Of a DNA stretch of 64,000 bases, positions 18,826 through 38,758 are shown one piece after another. Both the position numbers and the translations under genes were made by a program. Source of the stretch: Bacteriovoracaceae bacterium (lineage in GTDB: Bacteria; Bdellovibrionota; Bacteriovoracia; Bacteriovoracales; Bacteriovoracaceae); assembly GCA_020630335.1 (NCBI GenBank), contig JAHDBN010000008.1:1-64000 (forward strand), written 5' to 3'. The notes beneath the pieces were generated by a model. It saw only the letters and a program-made list of their open reading frames with translations. It was not told where the DNA came from and searched no databases. Within the stretch, counting starts at the first letter, position 1. Every line of letters starts with the position of its first letter.

Positions 18826-18989
18826 ATAACATCCTTGTTTTACGTAAGAAAAAAGCAATAAAAGTATTTTAAATAGTTATGACGAAAATGTCTTAGAAGG
18901 GAGTATTTTTCTCATTTATATTTGACAATAATTTTCATAAAAATTGATATCATTTACAAAAGAACCTGGCACTTTTTTATCCGATCAAA

Positions 18990-20215: not shown

Positions 20216-20279
20216 ACAGGCTTTACGAATTGTAGATCTAGTGCTATTTTTCACGCTATAAATACAAGGAGATTTGTTA

Positions 20280-20651: not shown

Positions 20652-20656
20652 CTCTT

Positions 20657-20694
20657 TTATAGCTTGGCTACTTTTTTCTCTGAAGTGCCTAAAA
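20657..20694 (+). repeat. direct repeat, copy 2 (3' end of the transglycosylase gene)
   Basis: Begins exactly at the stop codon of the leftward transglycosylase gene and differs from copy 1 at one base. In the plus direction it still encodes the DUF423 C-terminus and reaches a TAA at 20699-20701, as expected for a displaced original gene end. Confidence 0.9.
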
Positions 20695-21829: not shown

Positions 21830-21888
21830 AGCGCAGAGAATATAGCGCACTTCGTCATAAAAGCAATATTCATTGTAATATCTACAAG

Positions 21889-22758: not shown

Positions 22759-22764
22759 ACTCTC

Positions 22765-22770
22765 ATCATA
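22765..22770 (-). promoter_or_regulatory. -10 element for a leaderless mscS mRNA
   Basis: On the minus strand TATGAT occupies -12 to -7 before the ATG at 22758, which predicts transcription starting at the start codon. No clear -35 box at the standard distance was found. Confidence 0.35.
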
Positions 22771-22847
22771 ACAAAGGAAGAAAATAATATTTTCAAGAGG
22801 TAAATTTACCTTGCTCTATTAACACAATTAAAATAATTTTATTGATT

Positions 22848-23570
22848 ATGACTATCACCCATCTCCTATTCTTACTGCCCTCTTTATTAACAGGATTTAT
22901 TTCATCAGTCTCAGGCATGGGGGGCGGAGCTATTCTTTTAGGAATTCTCACTGCATTTTTTCCTATAAGAACACTTGTCCCAATTCATGGCATTGTTCAG
23001 TTAAGTGCTAATCTTTCGAGATCATGGATTTTAAGAAAGTTTATAAAAAAGAAAATGACTCTCTATTTTCTTTTAGGTGCTCCAATTGGTGCGTACTTAG
23101 GGACATTACTTTTAAAACAAGATATTTCAGAAAAAACTTTAAAACTACTCATTGCAGGCCTTATTATTTTTGTTGTTTTTAAACCCAAAAAGATGCCTCA
23201 GTTTAAATTAAGAGAATGGCAATTTTCTATCCTGGGATTAATGGCATCAACACTTGGAATACTTATTGGATCAGTTGGTCCATTTCTTGCTCCATTTTTT
23301 TTACGAGATGATATTAACAAAGAAGAACTTGTTGCTACAAAATCTTGTTTTCAAATGATTGTTCACCTAATAAAGATTCCTTCTTTTCTTGCCTTAGGTT
23401 TTAATTATTTCACTTATGGATATGAAACTCTTTTTTTAGTCTTTGGAGCTTTAATAGGAAATTGGATTGGGATTGCGGTCTTAAAAAAGATTAATAAAAC
23501 TGTCTTTACTTATATTTTCAAAATTAGTCTTCTAGCTGCGGCTGCTCGACTTGTTTATTCTTGCTTTTAG
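22848..23570 (+). CDS. TauE/SafE-family anion exporter
   Basis: The 240-residue protein has about eight membrane spans. Each half starts with a similar Gly-rich helix: LTGFISSVSGMGGGAILLGIL and LASTLGILIGSVGPFLAPFF. That internal repeat is the signature of the TauE/SafE (DUF81) family, which exports sulfite or sulfonate-type anions. An upstream in-frame TTG (22842) is possible, but the ATG at 22848 is preferred. No ribosome site is visible. A hairpin follows the stop but is better oriented for the gene on the other strand. Confidence 0.82.
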   Translation: MTITHLLFLLPSLLTGFISSVSGMGGGAILLGILTAFFPIRTLVPIHGIVQLSANLSRSWILRKFIKKKMTLYFLLGAPIGAYLGTLLLKQDISEKTLKLLIAGLIIFVVFKPKKMPQFKLREWQFSILGLMASTLGILIGSVGPFLAPFFLRDDINKEELVATKSCFQMIVHLIKIPSFLALGFNYFTYGYETLFLVFGALIGNWIGIAVLKKINKTVFTYIFKISLLAAAARLVYSCF

Positions 23571-23572
23571 TA

Positions 23573-23598
23573 TAAAAAAAGGGAGCCCTAAAGCCCCC
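23573..23598 (-). terminator. terminator of the OmpA-family gene
   Basis: On the minus strand GGGGGC (23598-23593) pairs with GCTCCC (23586-23581) with one G-U pair and a 6-base loop, followed by seven Ts (23580-23574). It lies 31 bp after the stop of the OmpA-family gene. A convergent gene ends just beyond it. Confidence 0.7.
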
Positions 23599-23629
23599 TC
23601 TTCTTAATATTTAGTTTTTAACTACTTTA

Positions 23630-25531
23630 TTAGTAATTATAAATTCTAAATTCTACTCTTCTGTTTTGCCAATGCTCTGGCTCTTCATTTAAGTAGTCAT
23701 CTCCGTAAGAAACTGTTTCAAGAAGACTTGGATTAACACCTCTTTGGATTAGGTATTGCTTAACATTTCCAGATCTACCAACAGATAATCTATTGTTATT
23801 ACTTTTGGGCCCAACTTTAGAAGCATAACCTTCAATGATAACTCTAGAAACACTTCCTTCGTTTTCAATTAAGTACTGAGCAACTTCATTAAGCTTCGCT
23901 TCTTGAGCTGAAACATTAACAGTGCTATCTACAATATTTGTTCTGTTATTGTTGAAGTAAACTCTCTCAGCTCTAAATAAAGTACCTAAGCTAGATTCTT
24001 GAGATCTATCAGAGATAATTTCAGGAACTGGTGCCGGAGCAGGAGCTGCAACTGGTGCTGGAGCAATAGCTCTAATGATCCACATTTCATTATCAAACTT
24101 CTCTCCGTTAATGAAACCATCAACATTAAACTCGTACTCACCTTCATAACCTGAAGGAACTGTCCAAGAAGCCATACCTGTTGTTGTATCAAATTGAAAT
24201 CCTGGTAAAGACGTACAAGGCATTCCACTCACTACAGCATCATCAATAACTTTATCATAAGTACAAACATAATTAATCGCATCACCATTAGTAGAAGCAT
24301 CCATTCCTGAGTTTAACTCATTAATATCAATCATAGAGATTGACTGACCAACAGTAACAGTTTGATCTGAAATTGAAATTAACTCAGCTCTAAGTGGTGC
24401 TGGCGGAAGTGGCTCAACAACTGGTTCTGGTTCTTCTTCAATAATTTTAACTTTCTCAACTCTCTCTCTTGGCCCTGGATGAATCTTTAGACCAGCAAAA
24501 AGTGTAATATTCCCAAGATCAACTTCGTTGAATCCAGCAACACCAGCACCAGCGTAAATATCAAAGTTTTTGTGAGCTTTGTATTTACCAGTTAGATAAA
24601 TATCCATTGAGTTCTGATCGATCTTTTCTGTATTTGCTGCATTTGTAGGAATAGAGTCTGTTCCAATTGTGTGCCTATAATCAAGCTCTAGGTTTGCATT
24701 GAACTTTTTAGTGATCCTATAAGATAAACCACCTTGAACTTTAATTAATTTATCATAATCGATTACATCTAATTCTGATTCAGAACCATGAGAATAACCA
24801 GCACCTAATTGCATACCAAGTCTTTTCCAAACTTTTTCAAAAACACCCATAATGTTAAATCTAATTTTATGAGAAGTGTTGAAGGCTTCAGACTTACCAG
24901 TAGGTAAATCAATAGCTGGTAAAAGAGCAAATGCCATTCTTCTTTTAGCATTTCTATAAAATCTCCACTTTGCTCTTAAACGTACATCACCGATAGATCC
25001 AACGTCACCATTACCATTTTGAATATTATAAAATGGGTTTTCATTTCCATTACACCGAGAACCACCAAATGTATTTGTACCACCTGTTACTGTTGATCCA
25101 TCGCTAAATGGCCCAGCAGAACCAGCAGAACAATCAATACCAACCTGTGCTCTGGCAATGGCATCATTATTACCGCCATTCAAAGCCGCAGTCTCATCAC
25201 TCATTGATTGCTTCACATAACTTATATCAGCACCAATTGCTAAATATCTCTTTAAATAATAACTAGCACCTAATGTACCAATCAAATGGTTATCAACAAC
25301 AACACCAACTTTGTCTCCAGAGTTAACATCTTTGGCAATAACAAGAGGTTGCTTAACGTAAGCACCACTTAAATGAACTACCCATCTTCCTGGATGTTTT
25401 AAAAGTAACGAGTCTTCGATGACTGCATACTTGTAAGCATCAGAAAAATAATAATTCTGAAGATTAATGGCCCACGTATTTGCGGACATGAAAAATGCTA
25501 CAGCGAGCATTAAGAAATTTTTCTTTCTCAC
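23630..25531 (-). CDS. outer-membrane beta-barrel protein with C-terminal OmpA domain
   Basis: The 633-residue protein has a signal peptide (about 1-21). An N-terminal transmembrane barrel follows (about 22-365, many alternating strands). Then come a Pro-rich hinge (PEPVVEPLPPAP), an Ig/cadherin-like section (about 385-490), a second Pro/Ala linker (PAPVAAPAPAPVPE) and a peptidoglycan-binding OmpA domain (about 515-633). The OmpA domain has GYASKVGPKSNNNRLSVGRSGNVKQYL and NRRVEFRI. It should tie the outer membrane to the cell wall. It starts with GTG behind a good AAGGAAGG ribosome site. It is monocistronic with a strong terminator, so probably abundant. Confidence 0.9.
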   Translation of the reverse strand: MRKKNFLMLAVAFFMSANTWAINLQNYYFSDAYKYAVIEDSLLLKHPGRWVVHLSGAYVKQPLVIAKDVNSGDKVGVVVDNHLIGTLGASYYLKRYLAIGADISYVKQSMSDETAALNGGNNDAIARAQVGIDCSAGSAGPFSDGSTVTGGTNTFGGSRCNGNENPFYNIQNGNGDVGSIGDVRLRAKWRFYRNAKRRMAFALLPAIDLPTGKSEAFNTSHKIRFNIMGVFEKVWKRLGMQLGAGYSHGSESELDVIDYDKLIKVQGGLSYRITKKFNANLELDYRHTIGTDSIPTNAANTEKIDQNSMDIYLTGKYKAHKNFDIYAGAGVAGFNEVDLGNITLFAGLKIHPGPRERVEKVKIIEEEPEPVVEPLPPAPLRAELISISDQTVTVGQSISMIDINELNSGMDASTNGDAINYVCTYDKVIDDAVVSGMPCTSLPGFQFDTTTGMASWTVPSGYEGEYEFNVDGFINGEKFDNEMWIIRAIAPAPVAAPAPAPVPEIISDRSQESSLGTLFRAERVYFNNNRTNIVDSTVNVSAQEAKLNEVAQYLIENEGSVSRVIIEGYASKVGPKSNNNRLSVGRSGNVKQYLIQRGVNPSLLETVSYGDDYLNEEPEHWQNRRVEFRIYNY

Positions 25532-25667
25532 GATTCCTTCCTTTTCCTAAAACGTTTAGAATATTTAAAACTAACTATTAAAATGATCTAGAATATTCAT
25601 AGATGCGTCAACTCTTTGTAAAAAGGTTCTTACAAAACTTACTAAATTTATTTAAAGATGAGAGAAA

Positions 25668-26123
25668 TTAGAGTTTCTTTTCCCACTGAAGAACTTCACC
25701 GTTCTTACGGGTGTCAACCTTGTCGTAGCCATAAGACTCATTTAGTCCGATATTCCTAAAATTATCAACAGCACAGAAGTGCACGATATTAGAAAACTTA
25801 TCTTCTCTGGCTTTTTGCTCAAAGAATTCTTTTATTTTATGAGATACACCTAGTCCTTTGTGACTCATCTTAACTGCCGTATTTTTTGTTAACAAGGCCT
25901 TGCCATCTTTTTTCATAAATAAAGCCGCTATAATCTCTTTTTCAGCTTTAAAAGTTACAGAATATATATCCCAGCCCTCAGTTTGTTCTTGTTTTAGGTT
26001 TTTTAGTGACCATTCAAAATCACCGGCTTCAGCAAAGACATCAGCATCATAATCATAAACATCTTTTAAATCATCTTCCGTTTCACATTTTTTGAAAACT
26101 AACTTTGGATCTTTTTTACTCAT
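25668..26123 (-). CDS. GNAT-family acetyltransferase
   Basis: The 151-residue protein has the GNAT layout: strands VTFKAEKEIIAALFMKK, the acetyl-CoA loop motif HKGLGVSHKIKEFF (motif A, about residues 89-102), and a motif B-like segment FCAVDNFRNIGLNESYGY. The substrate is unknown. It follows the small cytochrome c gene by 11 bp and may share its transcript, but no functional link is evident. Confidence 0.75.
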   Translation of the reverse strand: MSKKDPKLVFKKCETEDDLKDVYDYDADVFAEAGDFEWSLKNLKQEQTEGWDIYSVTFKAEKEIIAALFMKKDGKALLTKNTAVKMSHKGLGVSHKIKEFFEQKAREDKFSNIVHFCAVDNFRNIGLNESYGYDKVDTRKNGEVLQWEKKL

Positions 26124-26134
26124 AATAATTCTTC

Positions 26135-26443
26135 TTATTTTTTCTTAGGCATACTAGCAATATATGCACTTAAATTAGAAATATCTTCATCACTTAAATT
26201 CTTCACATAAGGCATCATTTTCTTTGTATTATTATTTGCTCTCGTGCCATTTTTTATATTATAAATTTGTTCTTTCAAATACCATTCAAACTGCCCAGCA
26301 ATCATTGGAGCTTTCTGAGATTTTTTTCCTAGCCCATCATTGCCATGACAAGCGGTACATTTTTTATATAGCTTCTCTCCCCTGGCTAAATCTTGAGCTG
26401 ATAGCATAAAAGAAAAACAAAAAATAACTGAAAGTAACTTCAC
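26135..26443 (-). CDS. small periplasmic class I cytochrome c
   Basis: The 102-residue protein has a signal peptide (about 1-18). It has one heme site, CTACHG in KLYKKCTACHGNDG, and a distal Met in KKMMPYVKNLSDEDISNLSAYIASM, the class I cytochrome c pattern. It is a soluble periplasmic electron carrier. The GTG at 26443 is placed 6 bases after AGGAG and is better than the TTG just before it. Its maturation would use the CcsB/CcsA pair encoded at 29080-32141. Confidence 0.88.
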   Translation of the reverse strand: MKLLSVIFCFSFMLSAQDLARGEKLYKKCTACHGNDGLGKKSQKAPMIAGQFEWYLKEQIYNIKNGTRANNNTKKMMPYVKNLSDEDISNLSAYIASMPKKK

Positions 26444-26526
26444 CAAACTCTCCTAAACAATGATCTTTTACATAAACTGTATTGAAAATTCTTAATTTTT
26501 GCAATGATTTCTGTTAAAGATTGTCT

Positions 26527-27111
26527 ATGCATAAACGAATTCTTATTGGTCCCTTGCTAGAAACTCATCAAAAGTACTCTTTTGAATCTGAGGTTATATT
26601 TGTTGATGGTGGGTTGAATTTTAAAGATCAAGTGAGTGCTCCTAAGACTAGCAGTATTGGAGATGGTGATTCATCTGATAAAAAACCAGAAAACTTACTA
26701 TCAACTAATAAAGATCGATCTGATCTATATTATGCATTAAACAAGTCTTCAAAAGCTAAAACATATGAACTTTATGGCTTCTGGGGCAAAGACTTTGATC
26801 ATCACCTTTTTAACATTGGTGAAGCTTACCAATTTCTACATGAAAATTCCTCAATAGAGAAAATTGATTTTTTTTACAAAACAAAAAACATTCTCTCTAT
26901 CTATCAAAAAGGAAAGTTTCAGTTTGAGTTAAATTCTGAGTTCTCCTTAGGCTCTTTGATGGAAAACTTAATAGAGTTGGATGGAAACTTAACTTACCAA
27001 GGCACAATACGACTCATAGCTCTTAGTTCTCAAGGCCTTCATAATAAAGCAGCAGGTAAATTTAGTATTAAAGCAACTAAGCCTTTTCTACTTTTTTATA
27101 AAGATGAATAG
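26527..27111 (+). CDS. thiamine pyrophosphokinase-like protein
   Basis: The 194-residue protein has TPK-type motifs in order: VDGG (near 28), IGDGDSS (the DxDS metal site), DRSDLYYAL (the DKTD-E-AL segment) and GFWGKDFDHHLFNIGE (the GGRxDHxxxN segment). The C-terminal half is beta-rich, as in TPK. TPK transfers pyrophosphate from ATP to thiamine. The DHH in place of DH and a divergent N-terminus mean substrate identity is uncertain. It overlaps the convergent MFS gene by 35 bp. Confidence 0.65.
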   Translation: MHKRILIGPLLETHQKYSFESEVIFVDGGLNFKDQVSAPKTSSIGDGDSSDKKPENLLSTNKDRSDLYYALNKSSKAKTYELYGFWGKDFDHHLFNIGEAYQFLHENSSIEKIDFFYKTKNILSIYQKGKFQFELNSEFSLGSLMENLIELDGNLTYQGTIRLIALSSQGLHNKAAGKFSIKATKPFLLFYKDE

Positions 27112-28285
27112 ATAAAAATAAAAGAAGTGTAGAAAAACTAAGAAACGCAATTATTATCCAACTCGTTAGTTCCACTCCTATAAATTCGTAAAGATAAGCA
27201 AATAATGAAGGAGCAATTGCTGTAGAAATAACAACAATGCTAGCACCTACTCCACTTACTCTTCCTAAAAATTCATCTCCGAAAAGCTCTGCCATTAATG
27301 GCCCTCCAGTGGCGTTGGCCATTCCTACACTCATTCCAATAAAACAAAACATAATAATACAACTAAATGTTGAATCCCAAGTAATAAATATAAACATAGC
27401 AATGATAAGAGGAAGGTATTTGTAAGAAAAAATTCTAAATGATCCAAACTTATCTACTAAAAATCCTGTTAAAAATGTAAAGATTAATTGAGTAAGAGAA
27501 TAAAAAACAAACGAGCTGGCCCATAGAGATTCTTCCCAACCTTTAAAGTTGATCAAAAAATTATAATGAAAAAAAATCCCCGTCAAAATAAACCCAAGAG
27601 CTACATTTCCAACCAATAACATGTAGAGTTTATAATCCTTTAGAACTTCTTTATAAGTTTTATTTTGTCTAATCTCAGATACAACCACATTTTCATGATA
27701 AAAAATTTCTGCTTTAAAATTTCTAAGAAAATAAAATGTTATTGGAACTAAAATCAGAATAAAGCTTAATCCAACGGCTTTCGTTGCCCCTGAAAATCCC
27801 CAATTAGCTAAGAAAAACAAAACCAAAAGAGAAATTGTTCCTTCTCCAAGAGATTTCCCTATATTTTTAAATCCTAGTATCTTCCCTCTATTTCTTCCAA
27901 AGGACTTTGATATGGCAGTATCTCCGATCATAGGCAATGTTGATTGTCCTAATAATCTTATGAACATGTAGGATAAGAATAACCCAACAACGGAAGTAGA
28001 AATACTTAAAGAAAAAAAACTTAATAATACTCCTATTGAAACAATTAAAATTAGGGTTTTGATACTTTTTTTATCGATAAGACTACCAGATATTGGTAAA
28101 AACATTGAAGCTGCTAGAGTCGCAAACCCATATATACTCGCAATCTCTGAGATACTCAGATTAAATACTTTCGATATAGAAGTATTAAAAAGTGCTAAAC
28201 AATATGTCTGACCAAAACCAGAAAAAAAGCCTAAAGCTATAGTAAAAAAAATAAATTCCCAATGCTTGATAAAGACTTTTTTCAT
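27077..28285 (-). CDS. major facilitator superfamily transporter
   Basis: The 402-residue protein has about twelve membrane spans. The loop 2-3 motif reads GSLIDKKSIKTLI, an MFS motif A variant of GxxxDRxGRRxxL. An equivalent in the second half reads GFLVDKFGSFRIF. A related segment ISKSFGRNRGKILGFKNIGKSLGEG lies between. It resembles the monocarboxylate/oxalate-type MFS branch, but the substrate cannot be called. Its start lies only 21 bp from the divergent DUF1624 gene, and its 3' end overlaps the TPK-like gene. Confidence 0.85.
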   Translation of the reverse strand: MKKVFIKHWEFIFFTIALGFFSGFGQTYCLALFNTSISKVFNLSISEIASIYGFATLAASMFLPISGSLIDKKSIKTLILIVSIGVLLSFFSLSISTSVVGLFLSYMFIRLLGQSTLPMIGDTAISKSFGRNRGKILGFKNIGKSLGEGTISLLVLFFLANWGFSGATKAVGLSFILILVPITFYFLRNFKAEIFYHENVVVSEIRQNKTYKEVLKDYKLYMLLVGNVALGFILTGIFFHYNFLINFKGWEESLWASSFVFYSLTQLIFTFLTGFLVDKFGSFRIFSYKYLPLIIAMFIFITWDSTFSCIIMFCFIGMSVGMANATGGPLMAELFGDEFLGRVSGVGASIVVISTAIAPSLFAYLYEFIGVELTSWIIIAFLSFSTLLLFLSIHLYKKVEKA

Positions 28286-28306
28286 TTTATACTAAATTTA
28301 TAAGTT

Positions 28307-29041
28307 ATGAGTATTGTAAAAAAACTATTCTATGAATTCTATAGTCCTCTAAAGGATCACAGTCAAAGAATATTTTTTATAGATTTATTAAGGTTTTTGG
28401 CCATTATTCTTATGGTGATTTATCACACAGGTTATGATTTAAGTCTAGAAAGAGTAGTAAACATCAATATGAGAGCTCCTTTTTGGTATTATTTACCAAG
28501 AATTATTGTGCCTTTATTTTTATTCTCAAGTGGTATGAGTCTCAATCTCAATGCTAAATTCGAAGGTGTCTTAAAAAATTTCACAAAACTTAGGTTCAGA
28601 ATATTTAAGATTGCTTTCTTTGCGGCCTTAATCTCACTTGCAACTTATGTTTTATTTCCTAAATACTGGATTTTTTTTGGAACTCTTCATTGTATTGCTA
28701 GTTGCTCATTGATAGCTTCTCTTTTTTTAGGGAAAACACTTGCCCCACTAATTCTAGGCTTAATGATTCAACTCAATTATTTCTTAAATATTATCCCTTT
28801 CACTGATCCAATGGACTCAATTAAAATAAAATCTATGGATTATATTTCTTTGTATCCTTGGCTTGGAGTTTTTTTGATTGGAATGGGCCTTTCAAGCTAT
28901 TTAATTAAGTTCTTTTCAGCAATTAGTTGCCCCGATTCTTTAAGATGGATTAGCTATATTTCTCAAAAATCCCTACCTATCTATTTATTGCATCAAATTT
29001 TTATCTATAGCATTGTTCTAGGTTTATCTAAAGTCATTTAA
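28307..29041 (+). CDS. DUF1624 membrane acyltransferase-like protein
   Basis: The 244-residue protein has about seven membrane spans. Its N-terminus reads RIFFIDLLRFLAIILMVIYHTGYDL, the DUF1624/HGSNAT signature with the Asp and His thought to matter for transmembrane acetyl transfer. The C-terminus YISQKSLPIYLLHQ resembles acyltransferase-3 proteins. It probably acylates a sugar or envelope glycan at the inner membrane. No ribosome site is seen. The ccsB-like gene starts 38 bp downstream behind its own likely promoter. Confidence 0.72.
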   Translation: MSIVKKLFYEFYSPLKDHSQRIFFIDLLRFLAIILMVIYHTGYDLSLERVVNINMRAPFWYYLPRIIVPLFLFSSGMSLNLNAKFEGVLKNFTKLRFRIFKIAFFAALISLATYVLFPKYWIFFGTLHCIASCSLIASLFLGKTLAPLILGLMIQLNYFLNIIPFTDPMDSIKIKSMDYISLYPWLGVFLIGMGLSSYLIKFFSAISCPDSLRWISYISQKSLPIYLLHQIFIYSIVLGLSKVI

Positions 29042-29070
29042 TTGCTTCAAGGTCTTTATACCAGTAAGAT
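29042..29070 (+). promoter_or_regulatory. candidate promoter of ccsB-ccsA
   Basis: TTGCTT (29042-29047), a 17-base spacer and TAAGAT (29065-29070) predict a start at about 29077, three bases before the GTG of the ccsB-like gene. No ribosome site is visible there. Confidence 0.35.
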
Positions 29071-29079
29071 GTTAGTTAA

Positions 29080-30678
29080 GTGGAATTCATTAAAAAAATT
29101 GAAAAGTTCATTGGTGAAGTTAAATTTGCCGTTATTATCATCCTCATCTTTGCGGCCTATTTAACTTATGGAACTTTTCAAGAAAGTTATCATGGGGCTG
29201 AGTATGCTGGAAGACATGTTTATAAGTCTATTCCATTCATGCTGCTTCAATTTTTAATGTTTCTTAGTATTTTCACAGCAACTTTATTTAGAATGCCTTT
29301 TAAGAAAAGGCTTTATGGTTTTTATACCTTACACCTAGGACTTTTATTACTTTTTATAGGTTCTTTTGTTTCTTATTACGCTGGAATTGATTCTAGTATT
29401 ACTCTTGAACCAAATACTCCAGCTCAATATGTTGTCTCTCAAGAAGATGAACTTTTTTTTAAAACTCCACTAATCGAAGAGACTATTCCTTTACCTGCAG
29501 TATATAAAGCCACTGATATAAACCAAACTATTGGAAATATTAAAATACAAACCTACCTACCTTATGCTGATGAGACTTTGGAATGGAAAGATAGTATCAA
29601 GACAAGTAGGTATCACTCTTCTACTTATCAACTCTTTAATGACATGCTGAGTGAGGAGCTTACCTTTTCTCTTCATGATAAAGCAGATTTTGAAAGCTCT
29701 AAATCCCTAGGTCCACTAAATATTCATTACTTACCTGTTGGTTTTGCAAAATGCTTCAAAGCTAATCAAGCGGATCATTTAATTTGGGATTCACTAAATC
29801 AAGTCTGTCTTGAAAATATTTCTTTTGAAGAAAAAACAACTCCAACAGGATTGAAAATTTTAAGAGCAAAAAACTCCGAACAAGAAGAAATTTTTGTTCC
29901 AAAGCTCTCCCCTCTTCCGGTTTATATTGATCAAGATCAAAAATTAAAAGTAAAAGAAATTTCACCTTTAAGGCTTTTCTCTAGGAATATGTTTAAAGAC
30001 AAGCCTCATTTATTTTTATTTGGGAGATCTGTTTCTTATTTTGATCAAAGTGATGAGTTATGGATGACAAAAGAGTTAAATCAAATCATCGAGCTTCCTT
30101 GGATGGGCTTTCAGGTAAAACTACTTACTCATCATGATAAGAAATATCCTATTTTAAAACCTATTCCAGTGACGCCAATCCAGGATACAAATGAGCTTAT
30201 CAAAGGAAAGCAAAGAGCAATTAAGGTTAGCGTTCAGACAAAAGCTGGAGAGAAAGAATTTTTTGTAAAACGAGGAACTCCTCTCAAACCAGTGATTGAT
30301 GGGAAAGAATATTATTTTTCTTTAAGAAACCAAGCTCACAAACTTCCTTATCAAATCACGCTTGATCGATTCAAGATGAATGTAGATCCTGGGACTAACA
30401 AACCAGCATCTTATGAGAGTTTTGTTACAGTTTTTGATGGTGGATCTAGTAAGCATCATATCTTTATGAACAACCCTTTAAAATATGAAGGACTTACATT
30501 TTATCAATCTTCTTATTTTCAAGATCCAAAAACCGGTCAATACGGCTCAATACTCACAGTTAATTATGATCCAGGAAGATGGCTTAAATATTTAGGTTCA
30601 TTACTTTTAGTACTTGGTTCGTTTTATCACTTCGTTTTAAGACGTAAGATTATTTCTTTAAGAAAGGCCTCTTTATGA
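29080..30678 (+). CDS. ResB/CcsB-like cytochrome c biogenesis protein
   Basis: The 532-residue protein has three N-terminal membrane spans (about 17-35, 50-67, 80-100). A large periplasmic domain follows, with a last span near 505-520, which is the ResB/Ccs1 layout. Diagnostic segments include AAYLTYGTFQES near the start and late in the protein FVTVFDGGSSKHHIFMNNPLKYEGLTFYQSSYFQD, close to the ResB pattern of a peptide-bound periplasmic strand. With CcsA it forms System II heme export and ligation to CxxCH apocytochromes. GTG start; overlaps ccsA by 4 bp. Confidence 0.85.
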   Translation: MEFIKKIEKFIGEVKFAVIIILIFAAYLTYGTFQESYHGAEYAGRHVYKSIPFMLLQFLMFLSIFTATLFRMPFKKRLYGFYTLHLGLLLLFIGSFVSYYAGIDSSITLEPNTPAQYVVSQEDELFFKTPLIEETIPLPAVYKATDINQTIGNIKIQTYLPYADETLEWKDSIKTSRYHSSTYQLFNDMLSEELTFSLHDKADFESSKSLGPLNIHYLPVGFAKCFKANQADHLIWDSLNQVCLENISFEEKTTPTGLKILRAKNSEQEEIFVPKLSPLPVYIDQDQKLKVKEISPLRLFSRNMFKDKPHLFLFGRSVSYFDQSDELWMTKELNQIIELPWMGFQVKLLTHHDKKYPILKPIPVTPIQDTNELIKGKQRAIKVSVQTKAGEKEFFVKRGTPLKPVIDGKEYYFSLRNQAHKLPYQITLDRFKMNVDPGTNKPASYESFVTVFDGGSSKHHIFMNNPLKYEGLTFYQSSYFQDPKTGQYGSILTVNYDPGRWLKYLGSLLLVLGSFYHFVLRRKIISLRKASL

Positions 30679-32141
30679 ACAAATTTTTCTTTTTATTTAT
30701 TAGCATTGTTTTAAGCAATATCGGTTTTTCCAGCTCCACTTGCGATCAAAATATAGAAACCATCCCAGTCCAAGCAGATGGAAGAATTAAACCTTTTTCA
30801 GTTTTGTCTGTAGAAGTATTTAAATTCATTACTCCTGAAAAAAAACCTTTTGGCTTTTCAAAAGCTAAAGCGCTTTGTCTTTTAAGTAATGAGTTTTATG
30901 ATCCGAAAGACTTAGATCTTCCAATTAAAATTGAACATGTAAAAGCAAGAAAACTTCTTGAGATTGATCAGAATAAAACCTCTATGAACTTCTCTGATCT
31001 TGAAGGCTATTCTATGGAAATTAGAGCTGCCATGATGAAGATCAAAGAAAATAATAGTTATAAAAAAGAACTTCAAAAAATTTCTAGTAGAATAAATTAC
31101 GTCAATGCTATAAAAAAAGGAAAGCTCTTTAGCCTCTATGATAAAAGTTCTACATGGAGAGGCCTTGATTCTTTATCACTAAATGAGTTTAACTCTTTAT
31201 TTCAAGTAAGTGATCATCAAAAAAAACTGGGGAATACTTATATGTTTGAGCATTACTTGTTTAAGTATCATCCCTTTGGCATTGCGATTATCTTTATTTT
31301 ACTTTCTATTTTTTCTCTTTCTATTTTCAAAAAGAATGCACTTGGCATGAGCTTTGCTGTTATTGCTTTAATCATTCAAGTTTTAGCAATTGCTGTGAGA
31401 GTTTATGTTTCTGGTAGAGCACCAATTACCAATATGTATGAAACAGTGATGTTTTCAGGTTTTGGAGCAGCACTCATTGCTTATGTATTAACACTTTTCA
31501 AAAAAGAAAAAATCTTTTTAATCGCAGGTTTGGGCTATAATGTTTTATGCCTATTCATGATGATCTTTGCTAATAATATGCTTAACCCCGCCATTAAAAA
31601 TCTTGAACCAGTGTTAAGAGATAATTTTTGGTTAAGTACTCATGTAACTTGTGTGATTTTATCCTATGCCGCTTTAGCTATTAGCTGGATACTTGCCAAC
31701 ATCTACATTGTTAAAACTAGTCTTGGCAAAGGAGTGGATAAGCCGAAGCATCAAGTAAAAGTGATCTATACATGTGTTCAGATTGGAGTGGTTTTGCTCG
31801 CAGCTGGTGTTATCTTAGGTGGAGTTTGGGCCGATTATTCTTGGGGGAGGTTCTGGGGTTGGGATCCAAAAGAAACTTGGAGTTTAATTGCACTGTTAAT
31901 TTACATGGCCATTCTTCACGGAAAATATACGTCTTGGATTAATGATAAAAATTTTATCCCACTCATTGCAGCGGCTTTTTTATCAGTCATTATGGCATGG
32001 TTTGGGGTAAATTATATTTTAGCTTCTGGGCTTCATTCTTATGGTTTTAGTGAGGGTGGTGCAATTTTTATTGGATCAGTCTTTTTAGCACAGATGAGCA
32101 TACTTGCCTTGCACTTTTTTCCAAAGAACAGAAAAGTTTAA
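30675..32141 (+). CDS. ccsA: cytochrome c assembly protein CcsA/ResC
   Basis: The 488-residue protein starts with an N-terminal signal or anchor and a periplasmic region. Eight membrane spans follow (about 205-480). The heme-handling WWD segment reads WGRFWGWDPKETWSLIALLIYM. Conserved histidines lie in STHVTCVILSYAA and GLHSYGF, and the motif SGRAPITNMYETV is typical of CcsA/NrfE. It presents heme to apocytochromes together with the ResB-like partner, which it overlaps by 4 bp (ATGA). The several CxxCH proteins in this window are its likely clients. Confidence 0.92.
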   Translation: MNKFFFLFISIVLSNIGFSSSTCDQNIETIPVQADGRIKPFSVLSVEVFKFITPEKKPFGFSKAKALCLLSNEFYDPKDLDLPIKIEHVKARKLLEIDQNKTSMNFSDLEGYSMEIRAAMMKIKENNSYKKELQKISSRINYVNAIKKGKLFSLYDKSSTWRGLDSLSLNEFNSLFQVSDHQKKLGNTYMFEHYLFKYHPFGIAIIFILLSIFSLSIFKKNALGMSFAVIALIIQVLAIAVRVYVSGRAPITNMYETVMFSGFGAALIAYVLTLFKKEKIFLIAGLGYNVLCLFMMIFANNMLNPAIKNLEPVLRDNFWLSTHVTCVILSYAALAISWILANIYIVKTSLGKGVDKPKHQVKVIYTCVQIGVVLLAAGVILGGVWADYSWGRFWGWDPKETWSLIALLIYMAILHGKYTSWINDKNFIPLIAAAFLSVIMAWFGVNYILASGLHSYGFSEGGAIFIGSVFLAQMSILALHFFPKNRKV

Positions 32142-32143
32142 GA

Positions 32144-32177
32144 AAATTAGATATTACTGTTTAGTAATATCTAATTT
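32144..32177 (+). terminator. terminator after ccsA
   Basis: AAATTAGATATTACT (32144-32158) and AGTAATATCTAATTT (32163-32177) form a perfect 15-bp stem with a 4-base loop, followed by CATTTTA. It sits between convergent genes and is likely bidirectional. Confidence 0.75.
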
Positions 32178-32189
32178 CATTTTACTTGC

Positions 32190-32876
32190 CTAGATCTCTT
32201 CTATTACTCTTCCCTTGTGATCTAAAAATAAATCAGGATGATACTTCAAAATACTTGATCCTATAGTTCCACTGACTCCTGTATCGATCTCAAAGTTTTC
32301 ATAACCTAGTTCGATATTCTGAACAACACCTTTGATCTTATACTCCAAATGTACAACTAAGCTCATAGCATCCATGAGTGATCTTCTATGAAGCTCCACC
32401 CCTTTTTCAGTTAAATGAATCACACAAGCTTGAAACGTTCCTGCTTGTCCTGCTTTGTGCTCGCAAAAAGATTTTTCTTTATCTATTTCATCAAAAGAGT
32501 TCTCGAGCTTTAAATATGAAAAGCTATATGGTGCTCCCACTATTAATGGATTCTGAGAGAGTTTTAGTAAAGACGGCCTAATATGTTCTAGCATTAACTT
32601 ATCATACTTAGGCCTTAATAATACTCTAATCGTTGCCTTTGGCTTACATCGAGGATGAATCCAACGACAATGATCTTTTGACTCATGATAAGAAAACAAT
32701 GGTTTTTTTGTATTCTCATCAATTGCGATTTCTAAGCTTTTAGGAACAGCATAAAAAAGATCTAAATCTTTATGATCTGGATAAATTGTTAGCATAGTAT
32801 TACTAGCAGCACTGGCATCAAGTACAGGCAAAGAAAAACTAAGACTACTAAAAAGTAAGACGATAATTTTTATCAT
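32190..32876 (-). CDS. exported protein, paralogue of the first gene of its operon
   Basis: The 228-residue protein has a signal peptide (about 1-22). The ATG at 32876 shares one base with the preceding stop (TAATG), has AGGAG about 6 bases upstream, and replaces a longer in-frame start at 32903. Residues after the leader, TIYPDHKDLDLFYAVPKSLE, match TLYPDHQNKNLFYFYADSSE of the operon's first gene (33979-34950), so the two share a domain. Several cysteines (CRWIHPRC, FCEHKAG) may form disulfides. No known family is recognised. Confidence 0.7.
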   Translation of the reverse strand: MIKIIVLLFSSLSFSLPVLDASAASNTMLTIYPDHKDLDLFYAVPKSLEIAIDENTKKPLFSYHESKDHCRWIHPRCKPKATIRVLLRPKYDKLMLEHIRPSLLKLSQNPLIVGAPYSFSYLKLENSFDEIDKEKSFCEHKAGQAGTFQACVIHLTEKGVELHRRSLMDAMSLVVHLEYKIKGVVQNIELGYENFEIDTGVSGTIGSSILKYHPDLFLDHKGRVIEEI

Positions 32877-33163
32877 TAATTTCTCCTTTTTGTGACTGAA
32901 CACTGGGAATTAAAACAATCAATTCTATAGAAGTGATCCAAAGAAAAAACCTGCTCTTGTGAGACTTCTCGCATCATCGCATTGAGTACAATTAATTGTG
33001 CTAGATCAAGTTGATCCATTTTTTTGATCTCATCTAATTTCATGATCTCTTGCTTTGATGTTTCTAATTCAATTTCAACATCTTGTTTCTCAGAGTTTCT
33101 TTTTACTTGAGTTTCATTACAAGAAAAAAATATGAATAAAAATATGAATATTACTCTCTTCAT
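32876..33163 (-). CDS. small lipoprotein
   Basis: The 95-residue precursor has a leader ending in a lipobox-like FFSC (Cys15), then an acidic helical region (EKQDVEIELETSKQEIMKLDEI) and two C-terminal cysteines (DCFNSQC). It overlaps the preceding gene by 4 bp (ATGA) and the following gene by one base. It is part of a four-gene translationally coupled operon and probably anchors or assists the exported partners. Function unknown. Confidence 0.68.
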   Translation of the reverse strand: MKRVIFIFLFIFFSCNETQVKRNSEKQDVEIELETSKQEIMKLDEIKKMDQLDLAQLIVLNAMMREVSQEQVFSLDHFYRIDCFNSQCSVTKRRN

Positions 33164-33978
33164 TTAATCTCCTTATAGCTTATAACTTTAGTAACGATGT
33201 TAATTTTTGCTTTTTTATTCTCAAGCTTAATGGTTTGCCCTTTTATCTCTTTGACTGATCTGTTTTCATATAATTTAGTTAATAAAAGTTCTTTAAAACT
33301 ACTCACACTCTGACTCATGTCCTGCATCACGCAGCCATACAAAAGATTATCTCTCAAACTTTCATAAGTGCTATTAAACTTAAATTCTTTTTGCTCTAAG
33401 GAATGTAACTGTTTAAAGTAATTCTTAAGAACTGAATATGTTGAATTCCCATTAGAAAAGAGTTTTCTACATACTTTATTTCCAAGACTTACCTCTTCTA
33501 CTATCTCATTTTTTTTCATAGAAACTTCGAATTCATCTTCTATTAAAACTAACTTTTCTTCTCCGAGTAAACTCTCCCTGATTTTCAAAAAATTCTTTTG
33601 ATCTAAATCAACTTGCAAGTAAAAATACACTCCATGCATTGAGTTTCGAAGCTGAACGCTTACATTCTTTTTTAAAGGTAGTATTCTTAAACTTATAACA
33701 TCTTTACTTTTAATGGTTCTAAGATTTCTAAATTCATAATCCCTATACCTCTTTTTTAGATTATTCAGATCAACATCTTTTTCAACCTCATCAGAAGAAT
33801 AATTCGAATCAATAATAAGTGTTCCCCAATCATCCTCACTCTCTTTCAACTCAACCAAAGAAACTTTTAACTCTAGCTTTGGAACAAAGAAAACTTTTTT
33901 TTCATACTCATCAACCCAATGATGAATGTCTTGTCCCCAAGCGCTACAAACTATAAAAATTAAAATTAAAAACTTCAT
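33160..33978 (-). CDS. exported protein of unknown function
   Basis: The 272-residue protein has a signal peptide (about 1-15, ending AWGQ). The mature part alternates short strands and Lys/Glu-rich helices, with two cysteines (VCRKLF, GCVMQD). No family is recognised. Its ATG begins one base after the stop of the 323-residue gene, and its end overlaps the lipoprotein gene by 4 bp, so all four genes are expressed together. Confidence 0.68.
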   Translation of the reverse strand: MKFLILIFIVCSAWGQDIHHWVDEYEKKVFFVPKLELKVSLVELKESEDDWGTLIIDSNYSSDEVEKDVDLNNLKKRYRDYEFRNLRTIKSKDVISLRILPLKKNVSVQLRNSMHGVYFYLQVDLDQKNFLKIRESLLGEEKLVLIEDEFEVSMKKNEIVEEVSLGNKVCRKLFSNGNSTYSVLKNYFKQLHSLEQKEFKFNSTYESLRDNLLYGCVMQDMSQSVSSFKELLLTKLYENRSVKEIKGQTIKLENKKAKINIVTKVISYKEIK

Positions 33979-34950
33979 TTACTCTCCTTTAATATATTTA
34001 ACTAATGTGTCGTAATTTTCTTGAATAGATTCCATTCCAAGTAATAAACAATGCTTTTTTTCGAGATTTACTCTCTCTGATAGATAGAAATCAATATCTG
34101 CAACACTTTTGTAACTTTCGTATTTCATCTTAAACTTCATGCCTAAGAAACTTTTACCTTTAGATTTACTACTTCCATTAATAAGCTCAGTGACAGGAGT
34201 AAGAAACTCTTTTATTAGCATCTCGGCCATTTTCCGAATATAAGCTTGATCGTTCTCATCGCCTCCGTTTCTGGTGATTTTTACAATGCCTTTTTTGATA
34301 AGTTTTTTTACTACACCCTTAAGATCTAGCCCAATTATCCATATCTTGCCTTTAAAACTTGCCTGTAATTCTTTATAAGACTCCCTCCAATCAATACTTA
34401 TATGAGCATCTAAATGATCAGATAAACCAGAAACGGTGATACACTGATTTAATGAAAATGGGTTTGAGCCTCTTAAGCTTTCAGAAAAAAGTTTTGCTCC
34501 CCTTGAAGTCAGTTCTCCTGAAAAACCTGTCTCGCCTCCAATAGGTGCTCCTTTGTCGGCGTGTTTGAAATTTGCAAATAAGTTAGAACCTTCAACTGAA
34601 ACTCCTGCTTCTAGTGAATTTTCTAATATAGGCATATGAGTAAGAGTGGCATTCGGGTAATTTACTCTAAAATCCTTTATGGCCAATTTCATTTCCTCGG
34701 AAATACTTAATTTAAAAGCACCATGAACAAAACCACCTTCTGAGTCATAGACCAAAGAAAACTTAGGATATCCATGCTTATCAAGCGAAATTTCTGAGCT
34801 GTCAGCATAAAAATAGAATAAATTTTTGTTCTGATGATCAGGGTATAAAGTTAAAAGCTTGTTGATTTTAATACCCTTTCCCTGAGAGAGAATCGGTCTT
34901 GCTATACTAAATTGCATGTAAAATAAACTAAAAATTAAAAATACTTTCAA
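33979..34950 (-). CDS. exported protein with YPDH-type domain, operon head
   Basis: The 323-residue protein has a signal peptide (about 1-17). A segment LLTLYPDHQNKNLFYFYADSSEISLD is shared with the last gene of the same operon (32190-32876), where it reads TIYPDHKDLDLFYAVPKSLEIAID. A probably helical middle (IWIGLDLKGVVKKLIKKGIV type) and KKHCLLLGMESI near the end complete it. I do not recognise a family. Leader peptides in all four genes point to an envelope or secreted complex. Confidence 0.7.
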   Translation of the reverse strand: MKVFLIFSLFYMQFSIARPILSQGKGIKINKLLTLYPDHQNKNLFYFYADSSEISLDKHGYPKFSLVYDSEGGFVHGAFKLSISEEMKLAIKDFRVNYPNATLTHMPILENSLEAGVSVEGSNLFANFKHADKGAPIGGETGFSGELTSRGAKLFSESLRGSNPFSLNQCITVSGLSDHLDAHISIDWRESYKELQASFKGKIWIIGLDLKGVVKKLIKKGIVKITRNGGDENDQAYIRKMAEMLIKEFLTPVTELINGSSKSKGKSFLGMKFKMKYESYKSVADIDFYLSERVNLEKKHCLLLGMESIQENYDTLVKYIKGE

Positions 34951-35047
34951 TAGATCTCCTTTTTTGAAAATTAGGAGTTCATCATCTAAGAAGTCAAAGA
35001 AGAACTATACAAAAAAAATGATTTGTTCTGAAAAAGAAACAAGAGCT

Positions 35048-35776
35048 TTAAGTTTGTTTAGTTTCACAAAAAGAAAACACACAACCATCTTTAAAATTTG
35101 TATGCACCTTAATGGATTCAATTTGAATTTTATCTTTAATCTCTTTATTTAGGATTGAAAAATTTGATAAAAAATCATTATCAAGTATTTCTATATGATC
35201 TAATTCAACATCAAAGAAATGAAAATATTTTTGATATAAAGGGAAAATGGCCTTGAAAATTGCTTCTTTGCTTGAGAAAATAAGAGCTTGATATTCTTGT
35301 TCATCCAAAGACATATTATTCATCTGATTTTCTTGATTACTCATAAATTGCTTAGATATTTGATCTTTAAATCTTTCAACATACTCTACATCTACTCCAA
35401 GTGAAGTTGAAGAATCAGAAGTAGCGACAAAAAAAGTATATTCTCCTGAAGTTTTCAAGCGCGCATGAGAGATAGAGCCACAGTAATTTTTAGGCCAAGA
35501 ACATTCCTTCGTTTCTAATCTTTCTAAATTGATATCTTTTTCTTCACATCCAAGTTTTAGTAGAAGATTCTTTGCTATCTCTCTTCCTTTTAAAAATTCT
35601 TTTTGTCTATTTTCAGACCAGCCTGAAAGCTCAGAGGCAAGATAATCATCTAATGAGAAATTATAAGTAAAAAGTTTATCTATACTTAAATTTTCAAATT
35701 CTTCTTTATTAAATTTTTTATAAGTAGATACTAAGCTCACGAGTCTAAGATACTTAAAAGTGCTAATTAATTCCAC
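35048..35776 (-). CDS. 4'-phosphopantetheinyl transferase (Sfp/EntD type)
   Basis: The 242-residue protein carries both PPTase signatures: SLGVDVEYVERF (metal-binding Asp and Glu) and IFSSKEAIFKAIFPLYQKYF (the WSxKEAxxKA motif, Phe for Trp). WPKNYCGSISHAR matches the upstream PxGxPxxSxSHxxG region. It would transfer phosphopantetheine from CoA to a carrier protein. No polyketide or peptide synthase lies in this window, so the client is elsewhere. The start is GTG immediately after AGGA, an unusually tight spacing, so the exact start is uncertain. Confidence 0.82.
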   Translation of the reverse strand: MELISTFKYLRLVSLVSTYKKFNKEEFENLSIDKLFTYNFSLDDYLASELSGWSENRQKEFLKGREIAKNLLLKLGCEEKDINLERLETKECSWPKNYCGSISHARLKTSGEYTFFVATSDSSTSLGVDVEYVERFKDQISKQFMSNQENQMNNMSLDEQEYQALIFSSKEAIFKAIFPLYQKYFHFFDVELDHIEILDNDFLSNFSILNKEIKDKIQIESIKVHTNFKDGCVFSFCETKQT

Positions 35777-35848
35777 TCCTGATTCCCGAGAGAAATATTC
35801 TATTATTGGAGATATTTTCTCCGAATTACCTCTAAATAAAAATAGTTA

Positions 35849-35854
35849 TATACT
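35849..35854 (+). promoter_or_regulatory. -10 element for a leaderless cytochrome c lipoprotein mRNA
   Basis: TATACT (5 of 6 to consensus) occupies -12 to -7 of the ATG at 35861, predicting initiation at the start codon. No ribosome site is present. A weak TTACCT lies at the -35 position with a 17-base spacer. Confidence 0.5.
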
Positions 35855-35860
35855 AAAGAA

Positions 35861-36280
35861 ATGAAATATCTGATTTTATCTTTTTTCTTCGTTTCTTGTA
35901 ATGATCAATTAATAAGTTCTTTGGAAAAAGAAGCAGTTACTACAACTACTAGTACAACATCAAGTTCTTCATCATCCACTTCTAGCTCAAGTAGTACGAC
36001 AACATCCAGCTCTACAACAACGACTTTGAATGGGAACTGTTTACCAACAGATAGAACTCAAGGTGATGCTAGCATAGGTGCTCAAGAATATTTCAGTAAA
36101 AACTGCGTGAGTTGCCATGGCCAAAATGGAGAAGGAGCAATCCACGGCCCTATTATCGGAGCGACTGATGAAGAGATATATGATGCGATTAAAGTAAGTC
36201 CTGCTCCTGAAATGCAACACTTACAAAATTTAGAGGACTGCATTATCCAAGATATTGCAGCCCATATTAATACTTTTTAA
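35861..36280 (+). CDS. lipoprotein cytochrome c with Ser/Thr linker
   Basis: The 139-residue precursor has a lipoprotein leader with lipobox FVSC (Cys13). A low-complexity linker of almost only Ser and Thr follows (about 27-55). Then comes a small class I cytochrome c domain with CVSCHG and a likely distal Met in PEMQHL. It is probably membrane-tethered on a flexible linker, passing electrons across the periplasm or at the surface. Its last codons (IAAHINTF and stop) are repeated at 37348-37378 beyond the next gene. Confidence 0.85.
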   Translation: MKYLILSFFFVSCNDQLISSLEKEAVTTTTSTTSSSSSSTSSSSSTTTSSSTTTTLNGNCLPTDRTQGDASIGAQEYFSKNCVSCHGQNGEGAIHGPIIGATDEEIYDAIKVSPAPEMQHLQNLEDCIIQDIAAHINTF

Positions 36281-36282
36281 TT
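36252..36282 (+). repeat. direct repeat, copy 1 (3' end of the cytochrome gene)
   Basis: 31 bp (atattgcagcccatattaat and the following 11 bases), identical to 37348-37378. The copies are 1,096 bp apart and flank one outer-membrane-type gene plus a non-coding leader. Confidence 0.9.
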
Positions 36283-36542
36283 TCTCTTAATAGTCATCTT
36301 ATTACTATATTCTCAATAAGCAGTCCGATAGTTGGAGTTTTCTAAAAAAGCTAATACTTTAAATCTCTTTCATCATTAGAATGAATTTGCTAATTTTATA
36401 CTATGTAGAAGCTAATACCACTTCAAGTACTGCATTACCTACTGTAGAAAAAATCAACACTCCCTATAAATATAACAATCTGAAATCCTCTTCTCTTTCT
36501 TTTAAGCTAAGATATAAAAAATAGTTTACATAAGGATATAAA

Positions 36543-37274
36543 ATGAAAAAAATTCTTTTTGCTTTCAGTATGCTTTTAGTAATTAATACCTTTGCCCAAG
36601 TAACTGAAGATCAAATAAGTTTACGATTAAAAAATCTTATAAAGACTGATTTAATTTCAGTTTCAGCTGGATCTGACTTTAAGAACATAGAAGTTCTTGA
36701 TGTCAATTTTTCTAAAGTCTATACAGAGGATTACCCTGATACTTTCTCTAACTTTTTAGTAGGAATTGAGAGTCTTTATGAATCCAACAACAGAACTACT
36801 CGAATGACCGGCGCTGTAGATTTATTAGGTGCAGCTATCGTAACTGACAATATACTACTTGGCTTCGTCATTATAGAGCCAGGATTTTTTTCAATCCAAG
36901 ACAAAAAAAGTGACAATACATACGGAGGGTTCTCGATGGGGAATAAGGTTCTTATTGGCTTTAGTGATAAATTCCTTGGTACCCTTTCACGCAAAACAAC
37001 ATTTGGACGACGCAATTACACTCTACTTAAAGCACATGGAACCTATTGCGTCACTAATAAGATCAAATTAAATGCAGAGACGTGCGTTTATACAGCTAAC
37101 GATGGACAAGATAAAATCACTGACCTTGAATTAGCAGAAGATAGTTTTTTCAATATTGAAGCATTATACGAAGTTCATACAGGGCTCAATATTGAAGCCG
37201 GAGTAAATCTTCACAACAGAAATGATGCTGGTAAACTTATGCTAGGCGCAACACTGAAAATGGGATTGTTTTAA
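36543..37274 (+). CDS. exported beta-barrel-like protein between direct repeats
   Basis: The 243-residue protein has a signal peptide (about 1-18, ending FAQ). Amphipathic strands and a terminal Phe (LMLGATLKMGLF) are the usual ending of outer-membrane barrels. AAGGA lies 7 bases before the ATG. Five of its seven Arg codons are CGN, whereas neighbouring genes mostly use AGA; this fits acquisition from another source. It sits alone between two 31-bp copies of the cytochrome gene's 3' end, with about 260 bp of apparently non-coding DNA before it (no convincing gene seen there). Confidence 0.7.
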   Translation: MKKILFAFSMLLVINTFAQVTEDQISLRLKNLIKTDLISVSAGSDFKNIEVLDVNFSKVYTEDYPDTFSNFLVGIESLYESNNRTTRMTGAVDLLGAAIVTDNILLGFVIIEPGFFSIQDKKSDNTYGGFSMGNKVLIGFSDKFLGTLSRKTTFGRRNYTLLKAHGTYCVTNKIKLNAETCVYTANDGQDKITDLELAEDSFFNIEALYEVHTGLNIEAGVNLHNRNDAGKLMLGATLKMGLF

Positions 37275-37347
37275 GTTCTAAAAAATAATCAAATAGTCCC
37301 TCTGAGTAAAAACTAAAAAAAATAGATAATATGAGCTGCGATACAAA

Positions 37348-37378
37348 ATATTGCAGCCCATATTAATACTTTTTAATT
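37348..37378 (+). repeat. direct repeat, copy 2, displaced cytochrome 3' end
   Basis: Identical to 36252-36282. It still reads IAAHINTF followed by TAA, and upstream of it is a decayed version of the preceding codons (QN where copy 1 has QD). The TAA abuts the stop codon of the leftward gene at 37377. Confidence 0.9.
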
Positions 37379-38645
37379 AAAGAACGATATAAGGATTCGA
37401 GATTTGTTCTTTTATTTGCTTCTTCTCTTCACTATCCTCTCTTGATTCAAAATAAGCATAAAGAAAAGCATCATTTAAACTTTGCTGTACATAATATGAA
37501 CTAGCAAAGCTATGTACTTGTGATTTTATAAATGCTGGTATTTTAGGAACAAACCCTAATGCCATTTGCCCCATTTTAATCATAGTTCTAATGTTTCGTA
37601 CTTTCCTAGGCTTATCATAATAAAAAGAAACAGCGGGTCTTGAAGTATACATATGCTCATTAACTGAGAAGTTATAAATTACTCGCTGACCTTTAGCATT
37701 GAAACCATTATAGAAAATATAATCTAAATGGCTTAAATCTTTCATCGTTTTTTTAAGACTTCTATGTTTACCCTGAGCTGATCTTAGAATTGTATCAAAT
37801 TTATTCCATCCAAAATCTGACCACGTCTTTACAGCACTTCTAGATTCTAACCAACCATTAACTGCAATTCTTGATTCATAAATTGAAGACACAACTCTAT
37901 TTACCTCATCAGCTGTAAGTCCTAATTCAGATTCAAAGTTAGATAGGTAATAAAGTAGAATGTTTTGAGAGATCACTCTTTGCTCAATAATTTTCTTCTC
38001 AGCTTCAGTAAATATAAAGCTTGCAAGATCTAAATAAGGAACAGAGTTCATCTTTCTTTTGGCAAACCTCATGGCTTGTCTAAAAACCTCGTTTGCTATC
38101 TTCTTTTTATAATAAAATTTTGGTTTATTGGGTTGAGCTACAATACTTAGATCTAAATTTTCATAAAAACCATTTAACTTCTTAATGAAATTTTCAATAA
38201 TTCCTTTCTTATCTAATTTATCAATAGCATCTTTTAAACTAAGAGTTTTTAGTCCTTGAAAAGATCTTTTAAGAGATTTTCTAATATTTCTCCGATCTCT
38301 TTTCTTAAATAATCCAGCAAATGGATCATGATTGGGAGCAAAGGCTGATGTGTCCTCCACTAGCCCAATTTCTTCTAATAAAGAATCAATTTTTCTTTCT
38401 GCTTCCGTATCACTTAAAGAATTTCCCCCTTGAGGAAATAGATCTTTACTTAAAGCTTCTAGGTCTTCTTTTAAGTTAAGAAAATACTTATTAAGGTTAA
38501 ATTGAGAGACAACTCCTCTAGCTTTAATGTGCATTAACTTACCTTGTTCATCCTTAACGAGCTCAAATCGCTCGAAAAATTTATCAACAGGTCCAGATAA
38601 TACAGTTAAAGAAAAGGTTAATAATAAAGAATAAATAAATTTCAA
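37377..38645 (-). CDS. large exported protein of unknown function
   Basis: The 422-residue protein has a signal peptide (about 1-18). The mature part is mostly helical and rich in Lys and Arg, with long amphipathic stretches (AFAPNHDPFAGLFKKRDRRN onward) and few cysteines. No motif I recognise. It is convergent with the direct-repeat-flanked segment; removing that segment would put its stop codon directly against the stop of the cytochrome gene. Confidence 0.68.
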   Translation of the reverse strand: MKFIYSLLLTFSLTVLSGPVDKFFERFELVKDEQGKLMHIKARGVVSQFNLNKYFLNLKEDLEALSKDLFPQGGNSLSDTEAERKIDSLLEEIGLVEDTSAFAPNHDPFAGLFKKRDRRNIRKSLKRSFQGLKTLSLKDAIDKLDKKGIIENFIKKLNGFYENLDLSIVAQPNKPKFYYKKKIANEVFRQAMRFAKRKMNSVPYLDLASFIFTEAEKKIIEQRVISQNILLYYLSNFESELGLTADEVNRVVSSIYESRIAVNGWLESRSAVKTWSDFGWNKFDTILRSAQGKHRSLKKTMKDLSHLDYIFYNGFNAKGQRVIYNFSVNEHMYTSRPAVSFYYDKPRKVRNIRTMIKMGQMALGFVPKIPAFIKSQVHSFASSYYVQQSLNDAFLYAYFESREDSEEKKQIKEQISNPYIVL

Positions 38646-38758
38646 AATTTCACTCCTTGAAAAATTTTTAATTAATTCGTTTCTTAATTATGGGAAATAT
38701 CTGCCTCTTTGAGAGGATAAAAGACTAATAGCTTCTGACATTAAATAAATTGACTTCA

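Follow-up and report, generated by a model that had tools for sequence, protein, structure and literature searches.

How did a single orphan gene come to lie between two exact copies of the 3′ end of a cytochrome gene, and was it brought there by a dedicated recombination system? The question is raised by a locus in a 64 kb stretch of DNA (the window) from a Bacteriovoracaceae genome, designated G000. Three genomes of the same genus (G001, G002 and G003), all of them Bacteriovoracaceae metagenome assemblies, were used for comparison; the same-genus placement of G000 was taken from the kinship annotation of the search tool. An earlier note on the window had proposed that it carries two cassettes of one exported gene each, and that the attachment sites of an integrase acting in trans are the 3′ ends of genes.

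The insertion at the cytochrome locus

The two copies of the repeat at the cytochrome locus are identical in 31 of 31 bases (Table 1), and copy 1 codes for ...IAAHINTF followed by TAA in the cytochrome ORF. Coordinates and reading frames had been given correctly in the earlier note. The window has no exact direct repeat of more than 20 bp other than this one (36252/37348) and one of 32 bp (20157/20657), and the two loci are within 17 kb of each other. In 20 order-3 Markov simulations of the same length, the longest exact repeat within 6 kb had 14-19 bp.

Table 1 Features of the two repeat-flanked loci. Positions refer to the 64 kb window.
Feature	Positions	Strand	Evidence or remark
DUF423 gene; 3′ end holds repeat copy 1 (20157-20188), final codons insert-derived	19841-20215	+	Pfam DUF423, E 2.6e-24
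Inserted DNA with 125-aa exported orphan ORF (20274-20651, +)	20189-20656	.	absent from three same-genus genomes
SLT-domain transglycosylase (mltD-like) gene	20657-21850	-	Pfam SLT, E 7.9e-22
Host gene 1, c-type cytochrome lipoprotein-like, 3′ end duplicated	35861-36280	+	Pfam Cytochrom_C, E 3e-5; same-place orthologues in three same-genus genomes
Repeat copy 1: the 29 nt that end the cytochrome gene, TAA included, then TT	36252-36282	+	exact-repeat comparison
Inserted DNA	36283-37347	.	junction empty in G001 (L006), G003 (L007) and G002 (L008)
Orphan exported ORF on the insert, 243 aa	36543-37274	+	CGN-rich Arg codons; relatives confined to own genome
Repeat copy 2: same 31 bp, non-coding, runs into native downstream sequence	37348-37378	+	exact-repeat comparison; G001 junction
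Host gene 2, leftward exported gene, 422 aa, stop abutting the repeat	37377-38645	-	52-63% identity within genus

Copy 2 ends against the stop codon (37377-37379) of the leftward gene, which is conserved in 20 of the 39 genomes searched. In G001, the closest same-genus genome, the cytochrome TAA is adjacent to the TTA of the leftward gene (...CCCATATTGATACGTTTTAATTAAAG...). The same state is obtained when the window flanks are joined with the insert removed: the cytochrome stop then meets the stop of the leftward gene (480/481, ...CCCATATTAATACTTTTTAATTAAAG...). The insert is likewise missing from G002 and G003, where ~40 bp separate the two genes. Both points had been anticipated in the earlier note, which expected the two stop codons to meet upon excision and suggested that relatives might have empty sites. 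Judged from these junctions, the 31 bp repeats bracket a genuine and recent insertion of one orphan gene, and neither neighbour has been broken by it. Degenerate remains of the cytochrome codons that precede the repeat, which the earlier note had reported upstream of copy 2, could not be substantiated, as the similarity is at chance level (anchored score 3, p ~0.09); extended decayed homology beside the DUF423/mltD blocks is borderline (p 0.02).

The cargo of the insert is peculiar to this genome. Its 243-aa protein has one paralogue with 63% identity on C3, and a second, weak paralogue is encoded on C6, both in G000 only; no relative was found in 128 other family genomes searched. It uses CGN for 5 of its 7 Arg codons, compared to 20% across the sampled part of G000; among 817 G000 genes, 0.5% have a share as high, which bears out the unusual codon use pointed out in the earlier note. 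The protein has neither a family match nor a PDB match, and its AlphaFold model (pLDDT 30) is too poor for fold assignment, so that the barrel-like character suggested in the earlier note carries no weight as evidence. When the cargo was compared with the genome collection and 129 family genomes, only its own paralogues were retrieved, and the cargo proteins of both window loci had no match among viral contigs and phage families. The 260 bp and 73 bp non-coding parts of the insert, as well as the insert at the second locus, showed no homology to other loci examined, and the searches made did not reveal a donor locus for either of them.

Two further duplicated gene ends

The second repeat of the window (32 bp, 20157-20188 and 20657-20688) flanks the 125-aa exported ORF, and its copy 2 starts precisely at the stop codon of the mltD-like gene. 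In G002 and G003 the two convergent genes share 77 bp, whereas in G000 the insert of 468 bp keeps them apart. When the G000 flanks are joined, an overlap of 47 bp results, with a DUF423 C-terminus of ...LKCLKEK-stop. Because the genes overlap, an insertion at this place must duplicate sequence if both genes are to be spared. On the basis of this sequence comparison, the 32 bp pair likewise brackets an insertion. The presence of two insertions of one exported gene each within 64 kb is thus supported, in both cases by empty or overlapping sister junctions.

At the corresponding junction of G001 (L029), a different exported gene of 114 aa is found, in opposite orientation and with its start codon overlapping the mltD stop. 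The reading frames of both neighbours are intact around this gene. Probably, the DUF423/mltD junction has been entered twice, in G000 and separately in G001. Any duplicate DNA copies of the old overlap in G001 are too diverged to be demonstrated by alignment, with scores of 11 and 9 compared to 12 for the 99% null. Duplication at the G001 junction is thus inferred from the conservation of both reading frames, not from DNA alignment.

The earlier note had also proposed to scan the genome for other gene-end repeat pairs. We compared gene 3′ ends with the next 3.5 kb, with mid-gene and 5′-end controls, for 812 genes in the 1.16 Mb (49% of the genome) of G000 that were read for repeats and gene ends. 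Outside paralogous or repetitive genes, the yield consisted of the two window loci and asnS, which are 3 of the 812 testable gene ends. The scan thus added one locus and nothing more. Neither of two outcomes that the earlier note had named as fatal to its proposal, a lack of other pairs and a lack of empty sites, was observed. At asnS, which lies outside the window, two genes of 97 aa and 272 aa come next, and behind them is a degraded repeat of the 3′ end of asnS, with one piece of 59 bp (86%), one of 26 bp (88%) and an internal deletion (about 165 bp overall). The signal for this end duplication is 46 in G000, compared to 10-17 in 28 family members. In G002 asnS adjoins the next conserved gene, and in G003 yet another gene lies between.

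A search for further exact repeats covered the same 1.16 Mb of G000 and samples of 407 kb from G002, 262 kb from G003 and 130 kb from G001. Apart from asnS, all that it returned were repeats within proteins, tandem genes, tRNAs and scaffold gaps. As sister proteins are 50-85% identical to those of G000, only recent duplications are detectable by such comparisons. A 3.3 kb contig (L098, 2457-2680) has 25 bp repeats and inverted copies (AGCTATTCTCG...) and is perhaps a plasmid or phage. The window holds one more G000-specific gene (17872-18858); its two flanking genes are direct neighbours in G001, with a spacer of ~20 bp there, and it has no flanking duplication.

At all three loci the duplicated piece is the 3′-terminal part of a host gene up to the stop codon, and in 3 of 3 cases the insert-side identity ends at this codon or at most 2 nt from it. 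We estimate, without formal computation, that random target duplication would give such an edge in about 1 in 10 to 1 in 25 cases per locus.

Origin of the duplicated gene ends

Two explanations would dispense with an insertion altogether. Assembly artefacts, either false joins between contigs that share a k-mer or a mixture of strains in a metagenome-assembled genome, come to mind as the three relatives are metagenome assemblies and G000 has scaffold gaps with repeated 55-mers. Such artefacts were recognized at L045 (2105-2314) and L054 (2960-3169), where 55 bp repeats lie on either side of 100 N. However, these gap artefacts have exactly 55 bp around N runs, which points to k = 55 and is longer than 31 or 32 bp, there is no N at the window loci, and an artefact would account neither for unrelated loci nor for the decayed asnS case. 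We therefore attach hardly any weight to this explanation. Only slightly better is the standing of a local tandem duplication with subsequent loss and divergence, which the earlier note had named as a possible origin. Genuine tandem copies with parts of both flanking genes do exist in the genus: in G003 (L064 on C47, 4804-10024), the duplicated unit comprises a gene of 510/1025 aa, the 5′ end of one flanking gene and the 3′ end of the opposite one, and these flanking genes are adjacent in G001. At the window loci, however, there is a single copy of the cargo, no flank copy exceeds 31-38 bp, copy 2 passes into native downstream sequence as in G001, and the cargo is missing from all sisters. This makes a tandem origin very unlikely.

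Site-specific integration in trans is a more serious candidate. A tyrosine recombinase would join small circles to the 3′ ends of genes; the circle would bring along the final ~30 bp of the gene and thereby restore it, as in CIMEs. The blocks do end at the host stop at three loci, the two clean ones have 31 and 32 bp, two of the loci are close neighbours, and G000 encodes several tyrosine recombinases. Against this, the targets are unrelated: the blocks of the cytochrome, mltD and asnS loci have no sequence in common apart from a chance-level octamer, with lengths of 31, 32 and ~165 bp (decayed), so that the asnS duplication is ~5 times longer, and just three gene ends in 1.16 Mb are concerned. 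The two window inserts lack shared termini, terminal inverted repeats, transposases and recombinases, and none of the six tyrosine recombinase matches of G000 was found at any of the three loci in the 1.16 Mb read. The only integrase examined that has a clear neighbour adjoins tRNA-Gly (L152, 11345-12897); accompanied by a small DNA-binding gene and an SSB-like gene, it belongs to an ordinary tRNA-integrated element. An octamer that the earlier note had pointed out in both cores (TACTTTTT) was rejected as a shared signal: common to the cytochrome and mltD blocks only, it is at chance level, was picked post hoc, and is present at 6 of 1087 gene ends, not all of which have an insert. As to integron gene cassettes, which have an attC hairpin at their end and an IntI integrase, an Rfam search over 19500-38700 gave no match, and the repeat blocks are host coding sequence. 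Thus, of the proposal that an integrase acts in trans at gene 3′ ends, the insertions between gene-end repeats and the empty sites stand, while the integrase itself, lacking a common block, common ends and a recombinase, is doubtful. Even less probable is a target-site duplication with a stagger of ~31 bp by an integrase, transposon-like or Cas1-like, that has escaped recognition. It would fit the nearly equal duplications of 31 and 32 bp at unrelated targets, but the inserts have neither terminal inverted repeats nor a transposase, Cas1 was sought in the genus and is absent, and the asnS duplication is far longer. Taken together, integrase or fixed-stagger insertion has a minor yet appreciable chance, given the similar block lengths (31 and 32 bp) and the precise stop-codon edges. 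We are sceptical that a separate route, integrase-independent or served by a trans-acting integrase, repeatedly sets single genes right behind stop codons and restores the end of the host gene. Such a route would allow harmless entry of new genes into the crowded convergent junctions of the lineage, and some of these (DUF423/mltD, asnS) would have been entered separately in sister species. A dedicated system, if there is one, would represent a novel class of minimal mobile cassettes.

We favour, with a probability of about 0.5, rare insertions by illegitimate or copying recombination, without a dedicated recombinase, in which the target was duplicated and which selection then filtered. Short foreign or orphan DNA, with one gene at each window locus, has recently entered a tight gene junction, and the joining event would also have duplicated the host gene end, so that both neighbours stay whole. 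This might happen by a template switch that re-enters ~30 bp upstream of the exit point. As another option, a fragment or small circle with a gene-end stub may be joined through a homologous event plus an illegitimate one. Selection would then retain only those events that duplicate enough of the target. The repeats would thus be gene 3′ ends because target-duplicating events were kept, not because of an attachment site. Nor does the convergent placement call for a dedicated system, since 109 of the 161 convergent gene pairs in G000 (68%) overlap or are at most 5 bp apart (median spacer -4 bp) and only duplicating insertions would survive there. The insertion of 17872-18858 into a ~20 bp spacer without duplication is as expected under selection.

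The variable block length and the different inserts of G001 at DUF423/mltD and of G003 at asnS speak for this selection-filtered insertion. The stop-codon edges at all three loci and the near-equal 31 and 32 bp speak against it, the latter being what a fixed stagger or core predicts. The copying step, for which neither insert offers a donor locus, is one that we infer. Ku was sought in the genus and is absent, and ComEC gave one sub-threshold match only, so that neither Ku end joining nor natural competence is supported as a route. Incoming DNA at lacZ of E. coli mostly gave homologous gene-end duplications of 109-950 bp by single crossover (PMC3240628), which shows that gene-end-duplicating insertions can arise without an integrase. 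In four bacterial comparisons, 10-18% of small variable segments were flanked by direct repeats, mostly of less than 30 bp (PMC2884548).

Comparison with known systems

Most convergent gene pairs of G000 have no spacer, so that it is hard to see how a new gene could settle between them. The loci described here illustrate that incoming DNA can bring a second copy of the end which the genes share. A direct repeat of a gene end need not imply an integrase. In the Streptococcus ICE literature, CIMEs and other integrase-less remnants have flanking att sites that lie in gene 3′ ends. The loci in G000 resemble CIMEs in that a gene 3′ end recurs as a direct repeat on both sides of DNA without an integrase, and the gene is left intact. 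However, CIMEs have one target and att sequence in common with a resident ICE family, whereas three unrelated targets are used here, no partner element was found, and a common att core across the insertions is absent.

The small variable segments of Touzain et al. 2010 (PMC2884548) are also similar, being short indel loci without mobility genes, with direct repeats of ~30 bp or less at their edges and empty alleles in relatives. Both the empty alleles and the edge repeats are present here. The loci differ in that their repeats consist of the 3′ ends of host genes, at abutting or overlapping convergent genes, and in that the comparison is between species rather than between strains of one species. 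Homology-facilitated illegitimate recombination, or single-crossover capture (PMC3240628), has an equivalent product, consisting of the host gene, foreign DNA and a duplicated gene end. The laboratory duplications, however, have 109-950 bp and involve long homology, whereas those in the window, with 31-32 bp, are near or below the usual homology limit of RecA.
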